Source: Planctomycetota bacterium
Lineage (GTDB): Bacteria; Planctomycetota; Phycisphaerae; UBA1845
Assembly (NCBI GenBank): GCA_030616775.1
Contig: JAUWWQ010000037.1
Location: 1 to 41,617, forward strand
Direction: 5' to 3'
Length of the DNA stretch: 41,617 bases
Under the pieces are notes generated by a model. That model was given only the letters and a program-made list of their open reading frames with translations, did not search any database and had not been told where the DNA came from. Below, in pieces: positions 11,718 through 30,025 of the stretch. Each line of letters starts with the position of its first letter. Position 1 is the stretch's first letter. Position numbers and translations under genes: made by a program.

Positions 11718-13241
11718 ATGAACATCCTTCTTATCAACCCACCCCTCGGCGCACGCACGATCGGATTAAAGAACCTCGCCTGTATCGAGCCACTTGGACT
11801 GGAGGTGATCGGTGCGGCGGTGTCGCGCCATCATACAGTGCGCTTGGTGGACATGATGGTACGCCCAAACGACCTCCGCCGGTCGTTGCGAGAATTCAAG
11901 CCGGACATCGCTGGGGTGACCTCCGATATCATCCATCTGGAAACGGCCATCGAAGCGCTTCAGGTTGTAAATCTGCACGCTCCGCAGTGCCTGACGGTCG
12001 TAGGTGGTCACCATGCAACACTTTGCCCGAGGGACTTTGACCATCCGGCGGTGGACTTGGTGGTTGTGGGAGAGGGGGTCGATACTTTTGCCGAGATCTG
12101 CTCAGCCAAGGCAAGTGGGTCGAACGGCTTCGACGAGATTCCCGGTATCTGTTTGCGCACACCGGACGGGTTGAAGCTGACTCGTCCGCGCCCGCTGCCG
12201 TCTACTCTGGACGACCAGCCGTTTCCGGATCGCTCGTTGGTGGACCGCTACCGCAAGCATTACTATTACCTGTTCGAGCCCTCCGTAGCCGCCGTACGAA
12301 CGTCCGTAGGGTGCCCGTTCGCGTGCGTTTTCTGTTCGTGCCGGGTCTATTCACACGGGACTTTCATTCCCCGGTCTCCGGATTTGGTACTCGAGGAGAT
12401 CCGCGGTCTGAAGGAGGAGTTCGTGTATTTTTGCGACGATCATTCATTCTGTGATCCGCAGCGCATGCGTGTTCTCGGCGAAATGCTACTGCGGAACGGT
12501 GTGAAGAAACGCTATTTCGCATATTCCCGCACCGACTGCATCGTCGAGAACAAAGACGTGTTCGCATTGTGGGCAAGGGTCGGGCTCAGCCTGGTGATGA
12601 CGGGACTCGAGGCGCTTGACGACTCCACGCTCCGTCGCACTGGAAAGGACATCGAACAGAAGCAGAACGAAGAGGCCTTGCGGATCACGCAGGAGCTGGG
12701 TATCCATGTCGCCGCCGGATATTTGATAAACTCCGACTTTGGCGTCAGGGAATTTAAGGCCATCGACCAGCACATAAAGGAGCATCCCTCGATCCTCATT
12801 GCGGAATTGACTCCGCTCACGCCCTTTCCCGGTACGCCCCTGCACCGAAGGCTCGAGAACCGCATTCTTACCACTGATTACCAGCTCTACGATATGCAGC
12901 ACTTCGTCACCGAAACCGATCTGCCACCCAAGGAACTCCATCGGCTGATACTGAGGAGCTACGGAAAGCTCATCGGGCGGTTGATATTGAAACTTGGCCT
13001 ATGGCGGCCAGACCGGGCTTTCTCCCGACACAACTTGAAGCTTCTCGTAGGCGTGCTGCGGAGTCTTGGGCCCTACATGCGAGCCCATCAGAGCATACGT
13101 GCCGGGTGCCACTGGTGGCTCGCCCACCAGTTCGATGATCCGCTGTACAGGGGGACGGGAGGGGGGTTGGCCGCTTCCTCACGGGTGCGGTTCGGTTCTG
13201 TTGGGCGCTCTATTAGTCCTGTTTGCAGATCTCGCGGGTGA
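11718..13241 (+). CDS. B12-binding radical SAM protein with a repeat-derived C-terminus
   Basis: A radical SAM enzyme of 507 residues. The N-terminal cobalamin-binding domain opens MNILLINPPLGA and includes VVGGHHATLCPRDF. The radical SAM core has the [4Fe-4S] motif CPFACVFC (CxxxCxxC) and downstream FVYFCDDHSF and LVMTGLEALDD. It resembles the large BchE/HpnJ-like class that modifies lipids, tetrapyrroles or natural products; the substrate is unknown. The last 45 or so residues are abnormal: from about residue 464 the frame runs through a palindromic repeat (reading GCHWWLAHQF) into Gly/Arg/Ser-rich sequence and overlaps the converging truD stop by 29 bases. The original stop was probably lost when the repeat arrived. 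Confidence 0.8.
   Translation: MNILLINPPLGARTIGLKNLACIEPLGLEVIGAAVSRHHTVRLVDMMVRPNDLRRSLREFKPDIAGVTSDIIHLETAIEALQVVNLHAPQCLTVVGGHHATLCPRDFDHPAVDLVVVGEGVDTFAEICSAKASGSNGFDEIPGICLRTPDGLKLTRPRPLPSTLDDQPFPDRSLVDRYRKHYYYLFEPSVAAVRTSVGCPFACVFCSCRVYSHGTFIPRSPDLVLEEIRGLKEEFVYFCDDHSFCDPQRMRVLGEMLLRNGVKKRYFAYSRTDCIVENKDVFALWARVGLSLVMTGLEALDDSTLRRTGKDIEQKQNEEALRITQELGIHVAAGYLINSDFGVREFKAIDQHIKEHPSILIAELTPLTPFPGTPLHRRLENRILTTDYQLYDMQHFVTETDLPPKELHRLILRSYGKLIGRLILKLGLWRPDRAFSRHNLKLLVGVLRSLGPYMRAHQSIRAGCHWWLAHQFDDPLYRGTGGGLAASSRVRFGSVGRSISPVCRSRG
13108..13131. repeat. Palindromic hairpin repeat, copy 2 (ACTGGTGG family)
   Basis: Identical over 24 bases to 6854-6877; 8-bp stem ACTGGTGG/CCACCAGT, loop CTCGC. 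It also lies at a tail-to-tail junction, but here inside the 3-prime end of the radical SAM reading frame. Confidence 0.8.
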
Positions 13242-14448
13242 CGCTGGTTGCGTAGGCGCCCGGAGGAAGTTGGAAGGACAGGCGTAGGTATGGACCGTGA
13301 TCGTCGTTGTCGGCGTCGAGGTCCGGGCTCAGGAGTGGTACGCGTAGTGGGCGCCGGGCTCCGTCAAGTTTCGTGCCCTCCTTAGCGTGCATCTGCTCTT
13401 TGCCAAGACCGGACTCGTTTAGAACCTCGGCTTCGAGTTGACCCGGGGCGCCGTGAGCTTCGGTCATGCGGCGGCCAAACAGCGGGCCGGTGGGAGATAT
13501 CTCAAACGTGTAGCAGCGGACCTGCTCCCCGGCGGCATCCTCGACGCGAAAGCAGGCACCGTTGCGGTGCTTCCAGGCGATGTCACCGGTTTCCAGTCGG
13601 TCGATGCCGGTGATGCGCCGGGCAAGAACTCGGTTGAACAGTTCGCTTTGAACCGCGGAGACATATAGCTTGCGCAGCGTATGCTGGACGGCTTGCCAGG
13701 CCCTGCGCGCGTCACCGCTGCTTTTGATCAGCGCCCTGCAAATCCGTGCTTGCTCGGGAAACGCACGTTTCCAAGCGACGGCTGACGCTTCCAGATCGCC
13801 GGCGTCGAACAGCTCGCGCGCTTTACGTACATCGGCCTGGTCCATGGAGCCGAGCCGACCGAGGATCAGGGCAATCGCTTGGTCATAGTTGCCCTGGAGA
13901 ACGGCCCGGCCAATGAGAGCGTTATCGCCCCGAACGCCGAAGCGCTGGGGCCCGAAGTAGTTCGGCACGCCGCGTTTCGCTAGCACATCCATAATTGGTG
14001 CTGCCCGAGACAGCGGTGAAGCGACAGTACGGCGAATCTTGATCGTGAAGCGGTTTCCGGAGAGATGACCAAGCTTGATTTTGTTGCCGTGCCGGGAGAC
14101 GGAGAGCACACGAATTCGGCTCAGCCCGAGCGATTTGATGCGCGTAGGCTCCACGTGCTCAATGCTCAGCATTTGCTGCGTGACCGCGTGGGCGTCCTTG
14201 AGTCCGGCGTAACCGATGTCGCGGGCGTTCCGGCCAAGCGCTCGGGCGATGAGCCGGATCGCAGCCAGCGTGGTAAGGCCGCGTTTCTCAATGGTGAAGT
14301 AGGTGTGTGTCCCCTCTCCGCTGACCGAGTAGAGCGGAATTTCCTCGACAAGAAAGTCTTCGTCGTAACGCTTGATGACGCCACCAATGCCGGACAGGTC
14401 GGTGGTGAGGTAGGGCAGCTCTGTTTGGTGCCGGGAATTGGCTTCCAT
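13213..14448 (-). CDS. truD: tRNA pseudouridine synthase D
   Basis: Isomerises uridine 13 in tRNA-Glu to pseudouridine. Family landmarks are KRYDEDFLVEEIPLY near the N-terminus, DIGYAGLKDAHAVTQQMLSI holding the catalytic Asp of the GLKDxxA motif, GNRFTIKIR, and VPNYFGPQRFGVRGDN. The start at MEANSRHQ is preferred to an ATG 28 codons upstream, because that extension would be encoded by the repeated intergenic sequence shared with waaA. The length, 411 residues, is within range for TruD with its inserted domain. It diverged originally from waaA, but an RM module now separates them. Confidence 0.92.
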   Translation of the reverse strand: MEANSRHQTELPYLTTDLSGIGGVIKRYDEDFLVEEIPLYSVSGEGTHTYFTIEKRGLTTLAAIRLIARALGRNARDIGYAGLKDAHAVTQQMLSIEHVEPTRIKSLGLSRIRVLSVSRHGNKIKLGHLSGNRFTIKIRRTVASPLSRAAPIMDVLAKRGVPNYFGPQRFGVRGDNALIGRAVLQGNYDQAIALILGRLGSMDQADVRKARELFDAGDLEASAVAWKRAFPEQARICRALIKSSGDARRAWQAVQHTLRKLYVSAVQSELFNRVLARRITGIDRLETGDIAWKHRNGACFRVEDAAGEQVRCYTFEISPTGPLFGRRMTEAHGAPGQLEAEVLNESGLGKEQMHAKEGTKLDGARRPLRVPLLSPDLDADNDDHGPYLRLSFQLPPGAYATSVTREICKQD

Positions 14449-14470: not shown

Positions 14471-14566
14471 CGCGCAAGGTGGAATGGGCTATCGGTTGAA
14501 CGCGCGAGTTGGCGCTTTGCGGGCCAGGGCATACGATTCGCAGCCCATGCGATGGATAGCGGACCT
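14471..14566. repeat. Long direct repeat, copy A (duplicated truD-waaA junction)
   Basis: About 96 bases that recur at 16360-16455 at a constant offset of 1,889 with about nine mismatches; 42 bases in the middle are identical. It includes the DNA upstream of truD and a stub of waaA: its ATG at 14547 encodes MRWIAD, matching MQWIAN at the real waaA start. Homology ends at about 14566. Confidence 0.85.
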
Positions 14567-14585
14567 AGCTATCCGGGGTACACCA

Positions 14586-14607
14586 GTGCGCGCCACCGGG
14601 CGCGCAC
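14586..14607. repeat. GC-rich hairpin near the left edge of the RM insert
   Basis: Perfect 8-bp stem GTGCGCGC/GCGCGCAC with a 6-nt loop, 20 bases inside the left edge of the inserted RM segment. Role unknown. Confidence 0.6.
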
Positions 14608-14613
14608 AACGGG

Positions 14614-14642
14614 TTGGTACCGACGGCTTGACGTTGTATAGT
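14614..14642 (+). promoter_or_regulatory. Putative methyltransferase promoter
   Basis: TTGGTA (14614-14619), a 17-base spacer and TATAGT (14637-14642). Transcription would begin near 14649. The small palindrome GTATAGTAATAC overlaps the -10 box and is a candidate site for the controller protein. Prediction only. Confidence 0.4.
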
Positions 14643-14674
14643 AATACTCCGTGAAGCAGTCGAAGGACAGCGCG

Positions 14675-15481
14675 ATGGGTGCTAGCAGTGAGTCATCTAG
14701 GCGTCACGAACAACTGATACTCCCCGGAATGGCGGGGAATGCGCGCAACAAGCGGGTTCAGGGAGGGATTACCACCTCGAACGTTGTCGTCTCAGCCCAC
14801 GTCGGCGGTAACGCAGAGGTCTTCCCCCATATTCTTGCGTTGCACGTACCCGAGGGCTCGACGGTTGCCGACGTAACCTGGGGCAAGGGCGTTTTCTGGC
14901 AAAACGTTCCGTCCGGGCGCTATATCCTCAAGGCTAGCGATATATCGATCGGCGTGGACTGTAGGGCGCTGCCATACGCCGACGGTTCTATTGACTGTGT
15001 CGTGTTGGATCCGCCCTACATGGAGGGACTGTTTCGCAGGTCGCGCGAGCACATGGCCGGATCCGGAAGTCACAAGGCGTTTCGGCAAAACTACTCGGAC
15101 GGAGAGCCGTCCCAGGGCGGGGCAAAGTGGCACAACGCGGTGCTGGAGCTGTATTTTGCTGCCGGACGAGAAGCATACCGAGTGTTACGCAACGAAGGCG
15201 TCCTGATCGTCAAGTGTCAAGATGAGGTTAGCGCTAACGTGCAGCGCCTTACCCACCTCGAGCTGATCAATGAGTACGAGCGGACCGGGTATTACACGAA
15301 GGATTTGTTCGTCGTGGTCCGGAGGAACCGACCCGTCGTTAGCCGTCTCAGGAAGCAGGTGCATGCTCGAAAAAACCACTCGTATTTTCTCGTTTTCATC
15401 AAGACGCGTGGCAAGAAACGCCGTCATCACTTCGAGCGCTCACGTACTAGGTCTTCCAGGATGGGAGAGACATCGGGATAA
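14675..15481 (+). CDS. Type II DNA methyltransferase (amino-group class, DPPY)
   Basis: The modification half of an RM system. Motif I-like [12 protein letters not shown] binds S-adenosylmethionine, and the catalytic motif IV is [10 protein letters not shown], so the target is an exocyclic amino group (N4-cytosine or N6-adenine). The sequence [13 protein letters not shown] follows, then a basic tail with [14 protein letters not shown]. The ATG at 14675 has GAAGGA seven bases upstream; a GTG at 14651 would be nearly leaderless from the predicted promoter. The 3-prime end overlaps the converging endonuclease gene by 55 bases. The gene lies wholly inside the segment bounded by the 96-bp direct repeat. 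Recognition sequence unknown. Confidence 0.85.
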
Positions 15482-16068
15482 AACGGGGGCTGGGGTGGCC
15501 ACGTCACGGGGACCAGCGTAGCCAGCAATTGTCTTTGCTGTTGCGGAGTATAGCGCCGGTACCTGGAACGAGGGAGGTCCTTGTTCTTGGCGAAGACAAA
15601 CCGCCACTTGTTCTCAAAGGCGAACAGGTTGACGGCAAGGATGTCGAATTCGCCGACGCGGAGGCACGTAGTGTGTAGCGTGCTTCCATCGGGGAAGGTA
15701 ACCTCACGCTTGTCGCTCGCGTCCACCTGAACCTTACCAGTCCATCGGCCCTTCTCGTGCCGTACGGTGTTCGTTTGAAGCGACTTGCACTCGACGACAA
15801 ACCTGCGCCCCTTGCACACGATCACTCGATCACCCTTCTTAGTTCGATCGTGGTCATCGCACTTCATCGAGTGGGAGACGTGCGCAATCGCTTCGAGAAG
15901 CTTCGTGAGCTTCATCTCTGCTACATAGCCCAACATCATCCCGCGAAGGCTAGGGTTGGCATCAACGATCGCAGTCAGCTGTCCCACCGTGACCTTCCAC
16001 CGGTCAAGAATCGTCTTTGAGCCCGGATTCGAGCTCGAGGAGCCGGCTGGTTGGCTAGAGCTGCCCAA
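15427..16068 (-). CDS. Probable type II restriction endonuclease (PD-(D/E)XK)
   Basis: A 213-residue protein assigned as the cognate endonuclease from position and motif. A PD-(D/E)XK-like core is readable: an acidic residue in [10 protein letters not shown], then the strand [11 protein letters not shown] carrying the E-x-K pair (about residues 93-96). The region [13 protein letters not shown] that follows fits the next core strands of such enzymes. The first 18 residues are Ser/Gly-rich. The start is a TTG that overlaps the end of the controller gene by 14 bases, so translational coupling is likely. I cannot match it to a named enzyme; catalytic assignment is by eye. Confidence 0.7.
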
Positions 16069-16282
16069 GGATGTTCCCCGCGTCGACGTTGAGGGCTTCC
16101 GCCACTTCCAGGAACTCGATCAGGTCAAGCCGGCGTTCGCCCCGCTCGTACTTTGAGACGAAGGATTGAGGACGTTGCAGTTTTGCCGCAAGGGTAGCCT
16201 GGGTGAGTCCGGACGCTCTGCGGGCTTCGATCAGACGCTGCCGAAGTCGCTTGTACCTTGTTGTGAACACCGACTTGGTCAT
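16055..16282 (-). CDS. XRE-family controller protein of the RM system
   Basis: A 75-residue helix-turn-helix protein of the lambda-repressor/XRE type. RRASGLTQATLAAKLQRPQSFVSKYERGER is the complete DNA-binding unit (residues 21-50), written here with its recognition helix at PQSFVSKYE; the length is that of restriction controller (C) proteins. It precedes and overlaps the endonuclease gene, the usual C-R order, which lets the controller delay endonuclease expression until the host is methylated. AAGGGA stands eight bases before the ATG. Its operator was not identified. Confidence 0.8.
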   Translation of the reverse strand: MTKSVFTTRYKRLRQRLIEARRASGLTQATLAAKLQRPQSFVSKYERGERRLDLIEFLEVAEALNVDAGNILGQL

Positions 16283-16331
16283 GCGTTGGGTCCCTTGTTA
16301 ATATTCATGCCTTCATAATGCCACTCTGGGA

Positions 16332-16349
16332 TAAACCCAAAATGGGTTT
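16332..16349. repeat. Small hairpin near the right edge of the RM insert
   Basis: AAACCC/GGGTTT arms around an A-rich loop, ending 10 bases before the second long direct repeat begins. Together with 14586-14607 it places a palindrome at each edge of the insert. Confidence 0.5.
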
Positions 16350-16359
16350 CCGAGGATGG

Positions 16360-16455
16360 CGCGCAAGGCGGAATGGGCTACCGGATCATCGCGTGAGTTG
16401 GCGCTTTGCGGGCCAGGGCATACGATTCGCAGCCCATGCAATGGATTGCGAACCT
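16360..16455. repeat. Long direct repeat, copy B (native waaA start)
   Basis: Second copy of the 96-base repeat. It contains the present upstream region of waaA and its first six codons. See copy A at 14471-14566. Confidence 0.85.
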
Positions 16456-17776
16456 TGTGTACCTTGTGGCAGGGTTGCTCTACCTGCCGTTTGCGCTGTA
16501 TCAGGCGCTGATCGTGGGCAAGAACCGTCGTGGGTGGGGCGAGCGGTTCGGGTTTGTGAGGGAGTTCGATCCGAACAAGCAGCGGATCTGGATTCACGCG
16601 GTCTCACTCGGTGAGGTCAATGCCACTCCCCGCCTGGTGGAATCGCTTCGCCGGCGCCTAGCCCACGCCGAGGTTGTCTTCTCTACGACTACCGATACCG
16701 GCTACGCCCGGGCTGTTCAGCTTTACGGTACCGACCGCGTCTTCCGTTTTCCGCTCGATTTCAGCCCGGTCGTTTCTCGCGCTCTGCGGCGGGTGAGTCC
16801 GTCGATGATCGTGCTCGTGGAGCTGGAAGTCTGGTACAACCTGGTGCGGATGGCGACACGCCGCGGCATTCCCGTGGTGGTGGTTAACGGTCGACTGACA
16901 CCCCGCAGTGCCGTCCGCCTGCGTCGGCTCGGCCGCACTATACAGTGTATATTCCGCAACCTTGTGTGGGTTGGCGCCCAGGATGAGGCGATCGCCTCAC
17001 GTTTTCGCTCACTCGGTGTCCCAGCGGATCGCGTTGAGGTCACCTCTTCGCTCAAATGGGATTCAGCGGCGGTGACCGACCAGGTTGAAGGTGCAGAAGC
17101 GCTGGCTTGCGCGCTGGGGATTGACCGACGTCGCCCCCTATGGGTGTGCGGTAGTACGGGGCCGGGCGAAGAGACAATGATTCTCGACGCGTACCGTCGC
17201 TTGCTTGATGACTGGCCATGTCTGGCACGTGGCGTGCAAGCTGGGTCAACGGAGAAGAGTGATGTGGCGGGACCGTTACTGGCAATCGTTCCCCGAAAAC
17301 CGGAGCGCTTTGACGAGGTCGCTCGGATCATAGAGCGAGCGGGTTTCAGGTGCATCCGCCGCAGTGACTGCTGTGACGGTATCCAGGTTGTCCCGAAGCC
17401 CGGACCAGTAGTGCTTTTAGGTGACACTATGGGTGAGCTTCGCAAGTTTTACTCGCTTGCCGATGTGGTTTTCGTGGGGCGCACATTGGTGCCGTTGGGT
17501 GGCTCGGACCCGATGGAAGTGGCGGCCTTGGGGAAACCGATAGTCATAGGGCCGCATACGGAGAACTTTCAGTTACCGGTGATCGCGTTGCACACGGCGG
17601 ATGCGATACGAATTGTCGAGTCTGCAGACGCGCTGCCTTCTGCAATCGAAGCGTTTTTGCAGGACGAAGATGCGGCTGCAGAAATAGGATTGCGGGCCCG
17701 AGAAGTGGTAGTCGACAATCAAGGAGCGACGAAGCGAACGGCTGATGCCATAGTCGGATTGCTCGAAGCCGGTTAA
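16436..17776 (+). CDS. waaA: 3-deoxy-D-manno-octulosonic acid (Kdo) transferase
   Basis: Transfers Kdo from CMP-Kdo to lipid A precursor at the inner membrane. The protein (446 residues) opens with a membrane anchor, MQWIANLVYLVAGLLYLPF, then the family blocks WIHAVSLGEVNA (catalytic Glu), STTTDTGYARA, LVELEVWYNL and NGRLTPRSA in the N-terminal GT-B domain. The C-terminal domain has VVFVGRTLVPLGGSDPMEVAALGKPIVIGPHT, noted here by its core GGSDPMEVAALGKP. The 5-prime end, including the first six codons, is present a second time 1.9 kb upstream, beyond the RM genes. Its presence implies an LPS-type outer membrane. Confidence 0.93.
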   Translation: MQWIANLVYLVAGLLYLPFALYQALIVGKNRRGWGERFGFVREFDPNKQRIWIHAVSLGEVNATPRLVESLRRRLAHAEVVFSTTTDTGYARAVQLYGTDRVFRFPLDFSPVVSRALRRVSPSMIVLVELEVWYNLVRMATRRGIPVVVVNGRLTPRSAVRLRRLGRTIQCIFRNLVWVGAQDEAIASRFRSLGVPADRVEVTSSLKWDSAAVTDQVEGAEALACALGIDRRRPLWVCGSTGPGEETMILDAYRRLLDDWPCLARGVQAGSTEKSDVAGPLLAIVPRKPERFDEVARIIERAGFRCIRRSDCCDGIQVVPKPGPVVLLGDTMGELRKFYSLADVVFVGRTLVPLGGSDPMEVAALGKPIVIGPHTENFQLPVIALHTADAIRIVESADALPSAIEAFLQDEDAAAEIGLRAREVVVDNQGATKRTADAIVGLLEAG

Positions 17777-25882: not shown

Positions 25883-25965
25883 CCGCGGGCGCCAGCCCGC
25901 GGACATGATCCGAGCCGTGGGCGCTAGCCCACGGACATTCCGCGTCACCGGGCTCGCGCCCGGTG
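25883..25965. repeat. REP-like hairpin cluster, left of the RAYT gene
   Basis: Three hairpins: CCGCGGGC GCCA GCCCGCGG (25883-25902), CCGTGGGC GCTA GCCCACGG (25915-25934) and CACCGGGC TCGC GCCCGGTG (25946-25965). The first two differ by paired changes in both arms, so the stem has been conserved by covariation. The rest of the 25692-26095 gap holds copy 2 of the composite repeat and no gene. Confidence 0.85.
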
Positions 25966-25981
25966 CTCCGTCCGCGCCCGA

Positions 25982-26088
25982 TGCTCTGTCCGGGGTGTTT
26001 GCGCAGCAAAGGAGCTCGGCGAGATCAACCCGCCGGGCTCCGCGTTAGAACCTAAGTTGTCTACCGATGGTCCGCAATGGCGGACCCT
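25982..26088. repeat. Composite hairpin repeat, copy 2
   Basis: Begins TGCTCTGTCCGGGGTGTTTG and contains the two hairpins of the composite family (26011-26041 and 26069-26086, loop AATG). It matches 26954-27061 closely along about 107 bases and abuts the 3-prime end of the RAYT gene. Confidence 0.8.
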
Positions 26089-26095
26089 GCGTGAC

Positions 26096-26602
26096 TTATG
26101 GCCTTTGCGAGTCTCGGAACCGGCTCGCGTCCTGCCCCTCTACGACATACGCGACGACTGGATCGAGGTCCCGTTTCTTCCACACGTAACGGGTGCTTCC
26201 GTGTCGTGTCCACACCGTCTGCCCCGGACCCGCCAAACCCCGCTCCCGAAGTCGACGCGAACTCCATGCCTTCCATTCGCCCATCATCATCTCCGGTGCA
26301 ACACCCGCAAAACCAACCACAACGTGCACATGGTTGCTCCGTGCATTCACGGCCAGGAGTTCCCAGCCGCGCTGACGGCAATGTTCTTCAATGGTGTTGG
26401 TAACCAGATCCCTCGCCGCCTTCGTCAACCGAAACGGTGGATGCCCCATCCGTCGATGCAATCCCGCGACGCGTCCCTTGTCCGGAGGTATGTATGGCGT
26501 CCCATAGGCATTGTGTTCATCATCCACGGACCCGCGCTCGTCGCCGTAGAGCCACGTGCCGTAGCACGTCCAGGTAATCAGAAACCCCACCGGTTCCGCC
26601 AT
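26096..26602 (-). CDS. REP-associated tyrosine transposase (RAYT, Y1 family)
   Basis: A single-strand DNA nuclease related to IS200/IS605 TnpA, of 168 residues. The sequence FLITWTCYGTWLYGDERGSV is the family opening. The metal-binding HUH motif is in NARSNHVHVVVGF (about residue 98), and the catalytic Tyr is in VVAYVVEGQ near the C-terminus. WTRHGSTRYVWK is also typical. The ATG at 26602 is preferred to a GTG six codons upstream, as neither has a clear ribosome site. The gene is intact and flanked on both sides by REP-like hairpins, the normal companions of RAYT enzymes, and by copies 2 and 3 of a longer direct repeat. Confidence 0.88.
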   Translation of the reverse strand: MAEPVGFLITWTCYGTWLYGDERGSVDDEHNAYGTPYIPPDKGRVAGLHRRMGHPPFRLTKAARDLVTNTIEEHCRQRGWELLAVNARSNHVHVVVGFAGVAPEMMMGEWKAWSSRRLRERGLAGPGQTVWTRHGSTRYVWKKRDLDPVVAYVVEGQDASRFRDSQRP

Positions 26603-26638
26603 GACAGTCATCATACCCACTCAGAGACATGATCCGAG

Positions 26639-26917
26639 CCGCGGGCGCCAGCCCGCGGACATTCCGCGTCACCGGGCTCGCGCCCGGTGCTCCGTGCGAG
26701 CCCACGGACATTCCCTGTCACCGGGCTCGCGCCCGGTGCTCCGTGCGAGCCCACGGACATGATCCGAGCCGCGGGCGCCAGCCCGCGGACATTCCGCGTC
26801 ACCGGGCTCGCACCCGGTGCTCCGTGCGAGCCCACGGACATTCCGCGTCACCGGGCTCGCGCCCGGTGCTCCGTGCGAGCCCACGGACATTCCGCGTCAC
26901 CGGGCTCGCGCCCGGTG
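26639..26917. repeat. REP-like hairpin array, right of the RAYT gene
   Basis: Five copies of CACCGGGC TCGC GCCCGGTG start at 26670, 26719, 26800, 26849 and 26898, the third with a base change breaking the stem. Spacing is 49 bases, except where a CCGCGGGC/GCCCGCGG hairpin (26769-26788) is inserted; another lies at 26639-26658. Units are separated by the spacer CACGGACATTCCGCGT. Short degenerate copies continue to about 26950. No gene occurs in 26603-27079. Confidence 0.9.
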
Positions 26918-26953
26918 CTCTATCCGCGCCCCGGTGCTCTATCCGCGCCCCGG

Positions 26954-27061
26954 TGCTCTGTCCGGGGTGTTTGCGCAGCAAAGGAGCCCGGCGAGTCGCA
27001 CTCACCGGGCTCCGCGTTAGTACCTATGTTGTCTTACCCGTGGTCCGCAACAGCGGACCCT
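26954..27061. repeat. Composite hairpin repeat, copy 3
   Basis: Same layout as copy 2, with hairpins at 26983-27013 and 27042-27059 (loop AACA). It stands just past the stop of the RTX protein gene. Confidence 0.8.
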
Positions 27062-27079: not shown

Positions 27080-30025
27080 CTACTGGAAGTCAGCGAAATT
27101 CGTTGCGCTCAGTGCCGTTCGAGCCGCCGTGTCGACACCCGTCCACGTGGCAACCAGCTCGGCGGTATCGAAAGTAGTATCGACGCCTCCCTCAGTGACG
27201 AGATAGACGGCCGTGTCGGTCGCGGTTCCTGCCACCAGATAGATAATGTCGCTAATGGCTGTACCGGTCAGGGCATTCGCAGCCGCAAGTGCAGTAGCGG
27301 GCAGTAGATCGGCCATCGCGGTCGTCTGGAGGAACAGCCCGGTGTTGGCACCTAGCGCCGAAGCCGCAGCGCCTTCCTGGTAATCTACCCCCGTGCCGCG
27401 AAGGTTCGCGTTCGTCAGGTCGGTCCAATCGATCATGTCCGTTCCTGAAGTCGCGAAGTCGGAAACCGTATCGGCATCCGCCGTCACTTCCGCGATCAGG
27501 TAGTTGTACGTGTCGCTGCCGTCACCGCCAGCGATCGTATCGGCGCCCGCACCGCCGGTGATGATGTCGTTGCCGGCGCCACCGTTGATGGTATCAACGC
27601 CGGTCCCGCCGGTGATAGTATCGGCCCCGCCATTGCCGTTGCATGTGTTGACGAAGTTGCCCAGCGTAATGACGTCGCTATTGGAACCGCACTTGACTGT
27701 GACCGCCTGCTGCCACGTAGCAGCCGGAGCAGTCAGAATCCCGGTCATCCCTGTCGCGTCGAGGTCGGTGAACACAATCGAATCGGTGAGCAATACCGAG
27801 AGGGTGACGTTCTCCGAGCCCATGAAGTTGATCGTCTTGAGGGTCTCAGTAGCCCCTATGTCCTCAAACGTCTGCGCACCGGCGCCGCTGTCAACAACCG
27901 CACCGCTGTTGAAGGTGCAGTTGAGCATACTGTATCCGGTGAGCGTCGGCTCCGGGGCAGCACCGCCGAGCGTCAGCGCGCCTTGCCCGGTGAACTCCAG
28001 GTTCAGGGTATCGGTTGTCCCCGACTTCACGGCGAAGTCGGAAGTTGTGCCGATGGCCACGGCGTTGCCGCTGGTCACCTTGATGGTCGGATTCGGCGGC
28101 AGCCCGGTGAAGCTCAAGTCGGTAATCGCACCGAAGGCGCCGTCGATGTTGACCTGAGTGATCTCCTGCGCGTTGGTCAGGACGGCCGCCGGCGTCGCGT
28201 CGTCCTTGATGTTCAGCGTCTCGATCGCCGACACGGTAGCGGCGCCGAGATCGCCCGTGATCTCGAGCGTGTCGTCGCCGGCACCACCGTTGATCGTCGC
28301 CGAGGCGGGGATCGCGCCGGCGCGGACCGTGTCATCACCGCCCGAACCGGTAAACGTATAGGCGGTCAAGCCGGAAACGCTCACGTCGACCGAAACACCG
28401 GTGTCCATGCCGAACGCGTTGACCGTCTTGCAGGTCGTACCGATGGGCCCGTCGATCCGCAGGTTCTGGCTACCCACAGTGTTGAGCGTGACGAAGTCGT
28501 CCTGGCCGCCGTCGTCGATACCGTCGATCCGGTTGGCGGCGGACCCGATCGAGTTAAGCACGATCGTATCGGGGCCATTCCCGCTGGCGCCCGCAGTAGT
28601 CGAACCGACAATGATACTCACGCCCTTCTCGGCGCCGTCCAGGAAAACCTCCACGATCCCGCTCGCGAACAGCGAGTTCTTGTACGTAGCCGTCAGATCC
28701 TGGTCGGTGTTCCTGACACCGAGGTCGGCGAGCTCGTTGATCGGGTTGATGGTCAGGGCGTTGATGCCGCCGTTTGCCCACCATGTCTCGACGCCGGTCA
28801 TGTTGGCGCCGCTAAACGTCGCCGCTCCGCCGAACGCTCCGATGAAGACCTCTTCGACGTTGCTGACCGTGGCAACTGGAGCGTAGGTTGTGTTGGACAT
28901 AACCACGACGAGGTCGTCGTCGCCGTCGCCACCGTTAATGTTGTCGCCGGCCGACAGAGTGGGATTAGTGGCGGCCGTGACGCCACGAATCGTATCGTCA
29001 CCGTTCGTGCCGGGCACATTGTCCACATCGGCCGTAAGCACGTACTCCTGCCCCGACACGACGCAGTCGCCCGTGGCCGGGTCGCACTCGAAGCCCTGGT
29101 CACAGGTCACGTCGTCGCACAGACCGAGCGAGACACAATCGCCGGTGTCGGCGTCACACTCGAAACCGGGGTCGCAGGTGACGCCGAAGCACAGGTCCAC
29201 CACGCAATCACCGGTGGCGACGTCGCAAACAAACCCTTCGTCGCAGGTGACATCGGCGCACAGATCCCCGCCGCACTCGCCATCGGTGCAGACCTCGCCC
29301 GCAGCGCAATCGGCGTCGGTCAGGCAGTCGACGCACGCATCGTTGTCCTCGTCACAGGTCTCGTCTGCCTCGCAGGGATCCGGTCCATCCACGCAAAGCT
29401 GCTCGATACAGGCTTCCTCGCCGTTGCAGAACAGCCCGTCACCACAGTCGTCGTTGGTCGCGCACTCGATCTCGGTGCACGTACCCAGCTCCTCCCGGCA
29501 AACCTGCGTGTCGGGATCGCAGGGGTCGGTGCCCGCGACACAGGTGTTGTCGGCACCACAGGTCTCGGCGCCGTTGCAGAACACGGCGTCGTCGCAGTCG
29601 GCGTCGGCCAGACACTCGACGCAGGCCTCATTGGTCTCGTCGCAAACCTCGTCGGCCGCACACGGCGACGTGCCGGCGACGCATTCGGCATCGGTGCACG
29701 TCTCCACGCCGTCGCAGTACAGACCGTCATCGCAGTCGGCGTCAACGGTGCACTCGTCGCAGTGATCCGTGACCTCGTTGCACACCTCGCCCGCGTCGGC
29801 GTCACACGGATCACCGCTGTGGCCGCACACTTCGGTGTCCAGGCAAATCTCGTCCCCGTTGCAAAACACCTCGTCGTCGACGCAGTCGGCGTCCTCCGTA
29901 CACGGCGTCACCGGCGGCGGCAACGGACACCCCGTGACAAACACAAGCATGGCGAACACGCCACAAAGCATGCCCCAGCGAGACACCCGAAGCTTTGTGT
30001 TTCCTTCAAATTTCAAACCTAGCAT
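27080..30025 (-). CDS. Large Cys-rich and RTX-repeat surface lipoprotein
   Basis: A 981-residue exported protein. The segment MLCGVFAMLVFVTGC ends in a lipobox. Residues about 35-250 are imperfect repeats of the type DADCDDGLYCDGVETC, with regular cysteine spacing as in many planctomycete and myxobacterial surface proteins. About 255-330 holds three to four units of the type CDDVTCDQGFECDPATGDC. From about 335 to the end is a calcium-binding beta-roll region, starting VPGTNGDDTIRG and ending with GGAGNDIITGGAGADTIAGG and a DxxSDF-like block (ADTVSDFATSGTDMIDW). Few cysteines occur there. S-layer or adhesin is the likely role, by analogy. GGAGG precedes the ATG. Confidence 0.8.
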   Translation of the reverse strand: MLGLKFEGNTKLRVSRWGMLCGVFAMLVFVTGCPLPPPVTPCTEDADCVDDEVFCNGDEICLDTEVCGHSGDPCDADAGEVCNEVTDHCDECTVDADCDDGLYCDGVETCTDAECVAGTSPCAADEVCDETNEACVECLADADCDDAVFCNGAETCGADNTCVAGTDPCDPDTQVCREELGTCTEIECATNDDCGDGLFCNGEEACIEQLCVDGPDPCEADETCDEDNDACVDCLTDADCAAGEVCTDGECGGDLCADVTCDEGFVCDVATGDCVVDLCFGVTCDPGFECDADTGDCVSLGLCDDVTCDQGFECDPATGDCVVSGQEYVLTADVDNVPGTNGDDTIRGVTAATNPTLSAGDNINGGDGDDDLVVVMSNTTYAPVATVSNVEEVFIGAFGGAATFSGANMTGVETWWANGGINALTINPINELADLGVRNTDQDLTATYKNSLFASGIVEVFLDGAEKGVSIIVGSTTAGASGNGPDTIVLNSIGSAANRIDGIDDGGQDDFVTLNTVGSQNLRIDGPIGTTCKTVNAFGMDTGVSVDVSVSGLTAYTFTGSGGDDTVRAGAIPASATINGGAGDDTLEITGDLGAATVSAIETLNIKDDATPAAVLTNAQEITQVNIDGAFGAITDLSFTGLPPNPTIKVTSGNAVAIGTTSDFAVKSGTTDTLNLEFTGQGALTLGGAAPEPTLTGYSMLNCTFNSGAVVDSGAGAQTFEDIGATETLKTINFMGSENVTLSVLLTDSIVFTDLDATGMTGILTAPAATWQQAVTVKCGSNSDVITLGNFVNTCNGNGGADTITGGTGVDTINGGAGNDIITGGAGADTIAGGDGSDTYNYLIAEVTADADTVSDFATSGTDMIDWTDLTNANLRGTGVDYQEGAAASALGANTGLFLQTTAMADLLPATALAAANALTGTAISDIIYLVAGTATDTAVYLVTEGGVDTTFDTAELVATWTGVDTAARTALSATNFADFQ

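Follow-up and report, generated by a model that had tools for sequence, protein, structure and literature searches.

Ever since Helicobacter genomes were compared in 2000, it has been asked how restriction-modification (RM) genes without a transposase move. According to passages in two papers (PMC3031569 and PMC3874152, citing Nobusato et al. 2000, Gene 259:99, and Furuta et al. 2010), the insertion of an RM system can be accompanied by a target duplication that is long, on the order of 100 bp, and variable in length. In the window, which is the whole stretch of 41,617 nucleotides analysed here from a planctomycete of the class Phycisphaerae, three RM genes lie between truD and waaA, both of which are intact; how did they arrive there? 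Very probably, a 1.8-kb type II RM module was inserted into the truD-waaA interval of approximately 98 bp and duplicated approximately 96 bp of its target, such that each neighbour kept a promoter and a start, by a joining mechanism that we infer.

The repeat pair and the module-free site

The 96-bp direct repeat originally noted at a constant offset of 1,889, with about nine mismatches, was reproduced exactly by a repeat search: 87 of the 96 positions were identical (91%; Table 1). The copies shared 45 consecutive identical bases, with all nine mismatches lying elsewhere (permutation p=0.024). A search of the whole assembly of this organism (G000; a draft of 4.45 Mb) gave two matches in all, the second copy with E=3.9e-32, and the repeat is therefore neither a chance match nor a dispersed element; the latter reading was ruled out by the finding of just two copies in the genome. 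The assembly is a draft in 108 contigs, which would leave room for an artefact, but the copies differ at nine sites and have distinct flanks, and the same gene order was found in the independent assembly G001; together with the E value, this makes an assembly artefact or chance repeat exceedingly improbable. The only genes among the open reading frames of the insert were those for the methyltransferase, endonuclease, and controller (C) protein, with no transposase or integrase among them, as had been claimed for the transposase. The GC content of the insert was 57.4%, versus 60-61% in the neighbours.

Table 1. Features of the truD-waaA locus (positions in the window).
Feature	Position	Strand	Basis
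truD (intact left neighbour), tRNA pseudouridine(13) synthase	13213..14448	-	PF01142 E=3e-112, TIGR00094
Repeat copy A: truD upstream region and first codons of waaA stub (MRWIAD)	14471..14566	+	
Insert, 1,793 bp	14567..16359	.	Repeat search, comparison with G002, open reading frames
GC-rich hairpin GTGCGCGCC-ACCG-GGCGCGCAC	14586..14607	.	Read from sequence
DNA methyltransferase of N6/N4 type with DPPY motif; GTG start	14651..15481	+	PF01555 E=2e-7
Putative restriction endonuclease, PD-(D/E)XK-like, TTG start	15427..16068	-	Alignment; weak NERD PF08378
Controller (C) protein, HTH_3	16055..16282	-	PF01381 E=5e-11; PADLOC Control_protein
Palindrome AACCCAAAATGGGTT, upstream of C gene, probable C-protein operator	16332..16349	.	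Conservation in G001; similar sequence in G041
Repeat copy B: restored intergenic/promoter region plus start of the working waaA (MQWIAN)	16360..16455	+	
waaA/KdtA (Kdo transferase), right neighbour, intact	16436..17776	+	PF04413, NF004388; 87% to G002

It had been proposed that truD and waaA were divergent neighbours before the insertion, and that a relative should retain the two genes close together with one copy of the repeat. Among the three genomes sampled from the genus (G000, G001, and G002), G002 carried this allele: the starts of truD and waaA were 98 bp apart, and the repeat was single-copy. In nine more genomes, which represent further genera of the family, the module was absent and the two genes were 77-182 bp apart; no module-free relative carried both copies. 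Since truD and waaA are adjacent without the module in G002 and in these nine genomes, the module-free arrangement is ancestral and the module a newcomer, and its arrival with the copying of approximately 96 bp was supported. In comparison with the empty site of G002, copy A was collinear with truD and copy B with waaA. The duplication accounts for both neighbours staying functional, with the upstream region of truD preserved in copy A and a promoter and start for waaA restored in copy B. The assignment of a waaA stub to copy A and of the working start to copy B was borne out by the waaA sequences of G002 and G001; because these also begin MRW(I/L)AD, the MRWIAD stub is the ancestral form and the working MQWIAN start the derived one.

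The congener G001 and the age of the insertion

The more distant congener, G001, carried a homologous module at the same site with the same gene order (waaA, 72% identity), and a shuffle-tested search for a second repeat copy in this genome gave a best match of 13 bp, which was not significant (p=0.11). Per 96 sites, copies A and B of G000 differed at 9, A and the G002 sequence at 16, and B and the G002 sequence at 20. Taken plainly, the duplication would postdate the split between G000 and G002, because the two copies are closer to each other than either is to G002. On the other hand, the homologous module of G001 occupies this very site, so the insertion may predate the split, with later homogenisation of the repeats; the run of 45 identical bases suggests the trace that partial gene conversion would leave.

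In its fuller form, the older date supposes that the ancestor of the genus acquired the module between truD and waaA, that G000 and G001 inherited it vertically, that G002 lost it through recombination between the repeats, and that gene conversion keeps A and B alike in G000. We regard this history as falling somewhat short of an even chance. It accords with the site and architecture shared by G001, with the possible conversion patch, and with a similar pattern for hicAB at ffh in G000 and G001 (described below). The identities between the G000 and G001 RM proteins (methyltransferase, 76%; endonuclease, 71%; C protein, 62.5%) also resemble those of the host genes (truD, 73.5%; waaA, 72.4%), and in the RM tree the two modules were weakly sister (0.72) inside a clade that G004, in which the copy is located elsewhere, joined at 0.994. 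However, extensive conversion would be needed to make A and B more alike than either is to G002, and G001 is without a significant second copy. The RM proteins of G004 were closer to those of G000 than the host proteins of G004 were, so this RM module family does move horizontally. The alternative to one old insertion with loss in G002 is a recent insertion, or a re-entry, of the module.

The RM module and its occurrence at unrelated sites

The presence of a methyltransferase, endonuclease, and controller between the repeat copies, as originally read, was confirmed by Pfam and NCBIfam for the methyltransferase and the HTH controller, the nuclease being just weakly NERD-like (PF08378, E=3.5e-4, below the cut-off of Pfam). 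The methyltransferase was 55-72% identical to six homologues, and the DPPY motif and motif I were invariant across the seven. The alignment of the nuclease revealed a conserved D..ExK pattern (GDRV-YKG-VExKSLQ). The methyltransferase and nuclease genes are convergent and overlapping, and the start of the nuclease gene overlaps the end of the controller gene. By these sequence criteria, the insert is a type II RM module of 1.8 kb with a methyltransferase, a putative endonuclease, and a C protein. It resembles known C-protein-controlled type II RM systems in the methyltransferase, putative nuclease, small HTH controller, and upstream palindrome; it differs from them in that a search with the methyltransferase and nuclease profiles against solved structures gave no match. 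In G001 (L033 3560-4405), a single uninterrupted reading frame covered both controller and nuclease and may represent a C-R fusion.

A hairpin had been described at each edge of the insert. Both sequences are present, but that on the right most likely serves as the operator of the controller: AACCCAAAATGGGTT, located upstream of the controller gene, was conserved in G001 as AACCCAAATTGGGTT, and a similar AAGCCCAACTTGGGTT was found in G041 (a Phycisphaerae genome; see below). Because of this conservation, it is probably the (predicted) C-protein operator, and a role as the end of a mobile element was ruled out for it. The GC-rich left hairpin had no counterpart at the equivalent edge of the G041 insert.

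When genomes of 84,980 species were scanned, the methyltransferase had 80 relatives, spread over many phyla. Of the 80 loci, some of which had too little flank to tell, only those of G041 and of Dolichospermum sp. FACHB-1091 (G150) had long flanking repeats (at least 80 bp). In G041 (JAJVHU010000063.1), the module lies downstream of a class I aldolase gene, whose 3' end supplies the flanking 95-bp repeat (96% identical); this end is single in the congeners G031 and G049. The aldolase end occurs five times in G041 (L061 2714-8871), with RM, Fic, a secreted protein, and a NikA-like protein as cargo between the copies, and twice in G047 (L180 4340-5413), around a DUF6932 gene and a small open reading frame. 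In Dolichospermum FACHB-1091, the module is flanked by a 110-bp repeat, and this sequence is single-copy in the other 12 Dolichospermum genomes that have it; one of these, G163, represents the empty allele, in which a single copy joins the left flank directly to the right. The two copies in FACHB-1091, T1 and T2, are not sisters: T2 grouped with G163 (0.996) and T1 with G151/G157 (0.991). Since T1 and T2 come from different haplotypes, allelic recombination or an older duplication took part in this case. Just upstream of the RM module in this strain, nifH (L103 9265-9705) stops after 146 residues and looks truncated. The same three-gene module was also found on the 3.6-kb, Rop-bearing E. coli plasmid pYLPK5b (NZ_CP074026.1, L306), in which the nuclease is annotated as a hypothetical protein.

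Inserts of other genes and the route of insertion

A filter for unique direct repeats of 75-350 bp with at least 85% identity and inserts of up to 5 kb was applied to G000, sampled in stretches (about 1.5 of 4.45 Mb). It yielded seven cases, including that of the window, whereas 1.14 Mb of mixed loci from other genomes yielded one and 0.4 Mb of G002 none, this control being unmatched in that it consisted of RM neighbourhoods and short pieces. Two of these, at accD and ffh, are clear non-RM cases. A 200-bp copy of the 3' end of accD flanks a gene for a TSP3-repeat protein (L206 7215-9586, contig C25). At this site in G002, the left flank, one copy, and accD are contiguous; G001 likewise has one copy, and the cargo is absent in both. 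The repeat copies were 97.5% alike and 91-93.5% identical to G002, making this a clean case, in which the duplication would have been formed by the insertion event itself. At ffh, a 267-bp copy of the 5' end is followed by hicA-hicB and an intact ffh (L216 16175-18022, contig C35); hicA is also present at ffh in G001, with a 59-bp copy, and ffh stands without hicA in G004, G021, and G013. Around an 88-bp Mur-ligase repeat (L202), the flanks lie apart in G002, leaving no clean empty site, and three further repeats in G000, of 90 bp (L198), 153 bp (L214), and 243 bp (L201), count as candidates. Because these other inserts bear the same kind of duplication, the insertion process is not confined to RM genes.

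Other repeated sequences were also observed: a short sequence at L216 ~15816-15945 had approximately 40 dispersed matches in G002 and probably belongs to a family of interspersed repeats in this genus, and the window contains more direct-repeat families at 25902-27034 and 29061-29794, with 49-bp-spaced units and ~70/~140-bp repeats that look coding.

Two routes fit the entry of the RM module into the interval of approximately 98 bp between the divergent truD and waaA. In staggered-break capture, two nicks on opposite strands, approximately 100 bp apart, would be filled in after the module had been joined, giving the duplication; alternatively, a small circle carrying the module and the target would recombine once with the target, giving the same product. 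Homologous modules were found on small circles, such as pYLPK5b. The repeats could later exchange sequence by gene conversion, and could also delete the module cleanly.

As a variant of the route, an RM-bearing allele of a relative may have been imported by homologous recombination, one copy being the resident junction and the other having come with donor DNA or with a circle of module and junction. The different haplotypes of T1 and T2 in Dolichospermum point in this direction, as do the 9% difference between A and B, with an identical core in which the crossover could lie, and the module on the E. coli plasmid. We nevertheless consider such an import unlikely, at something under one chance in three, since copy A matches G002 at six of the nine differing sites, at both ends, which is not hybrid-like, and since similarity to G002 is unbroken along truD and waaA.

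A tyrosine or serine recombinase could have integrated an island site-specifically, with later loss of the recombinase gene, but this is far less probable still. The reuse of the aldolase 3' end with different cargo in G041 and G047 does recall integrase sites. However, neither an integrase gene in the insert nor a constant att core across the cases was found: the targets resemble one another neither in sequence nor in position (they include 5' ends, 3' ends, and intergenic DNA), and repeat lengths span 59-267 bp. An integrase is unlikely because the lengths vary (95, 96, 110, 200, and 267 bp in the long-repeat cases) and the targets share no obvious site. In sum, the original observation was confirmed and its interpretation, insertion with target duplication, was supported, with corrections concerning the right hairpin, the restriction to RM genes, and the age of the insertion.

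The module belongs to a known kind, RM insertion with a long variable target duplication. As far as the Helicobacter cases are described in the passages cited at the outset, the RM cargo, a variable duplication of approximately 100 bp, and detection by comparing related genomes are shared with them. The present cases differ in their hosts (Phycisphaerae planctomycetes and a cyanobacterium), in the occurrence of one RM family at three unrelated sites, and in the same scar around toxin-antitoxin and other genes of one genome. What is new is the extension to planctomycetes and a cyanobacterium and, most of all, the presence of non-RM inserts in the genome that carries the truD-waaA module. The minimal mobile elements of Neisseria are small cassettes, often RM, that lie between conserved genes and are present or absent among relatives. 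The truD-waaA module is alike in being a small RM cassette of variable presence between conserved genes, but the Neisseria elements are exchanged through their flanking genes and, unlike it, need no target duplication.

We suggest tentatively, with rather less than even confidence, that the Phycisphaerae of this family possess a general route of gene capture without a transposase, by which modules of 1-2 kb (RM, HicAB, Fic, DUF6932 pairs, and secreted proteins) would be placed beside housekeeping genes, with approximately 90-270 bp of the end of the neighbour duplicated and the neighbour left whole. A dozen or more such scars per genome would be possible, and some sites, the aldolase 3' end for example, would be used again. 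With the prediction borne out in another phylum, one RM family found at several sites that have no relation to each other, and the scar shared by non-RM cargo in one genome, the mechanism by which such genes move becomes testable.
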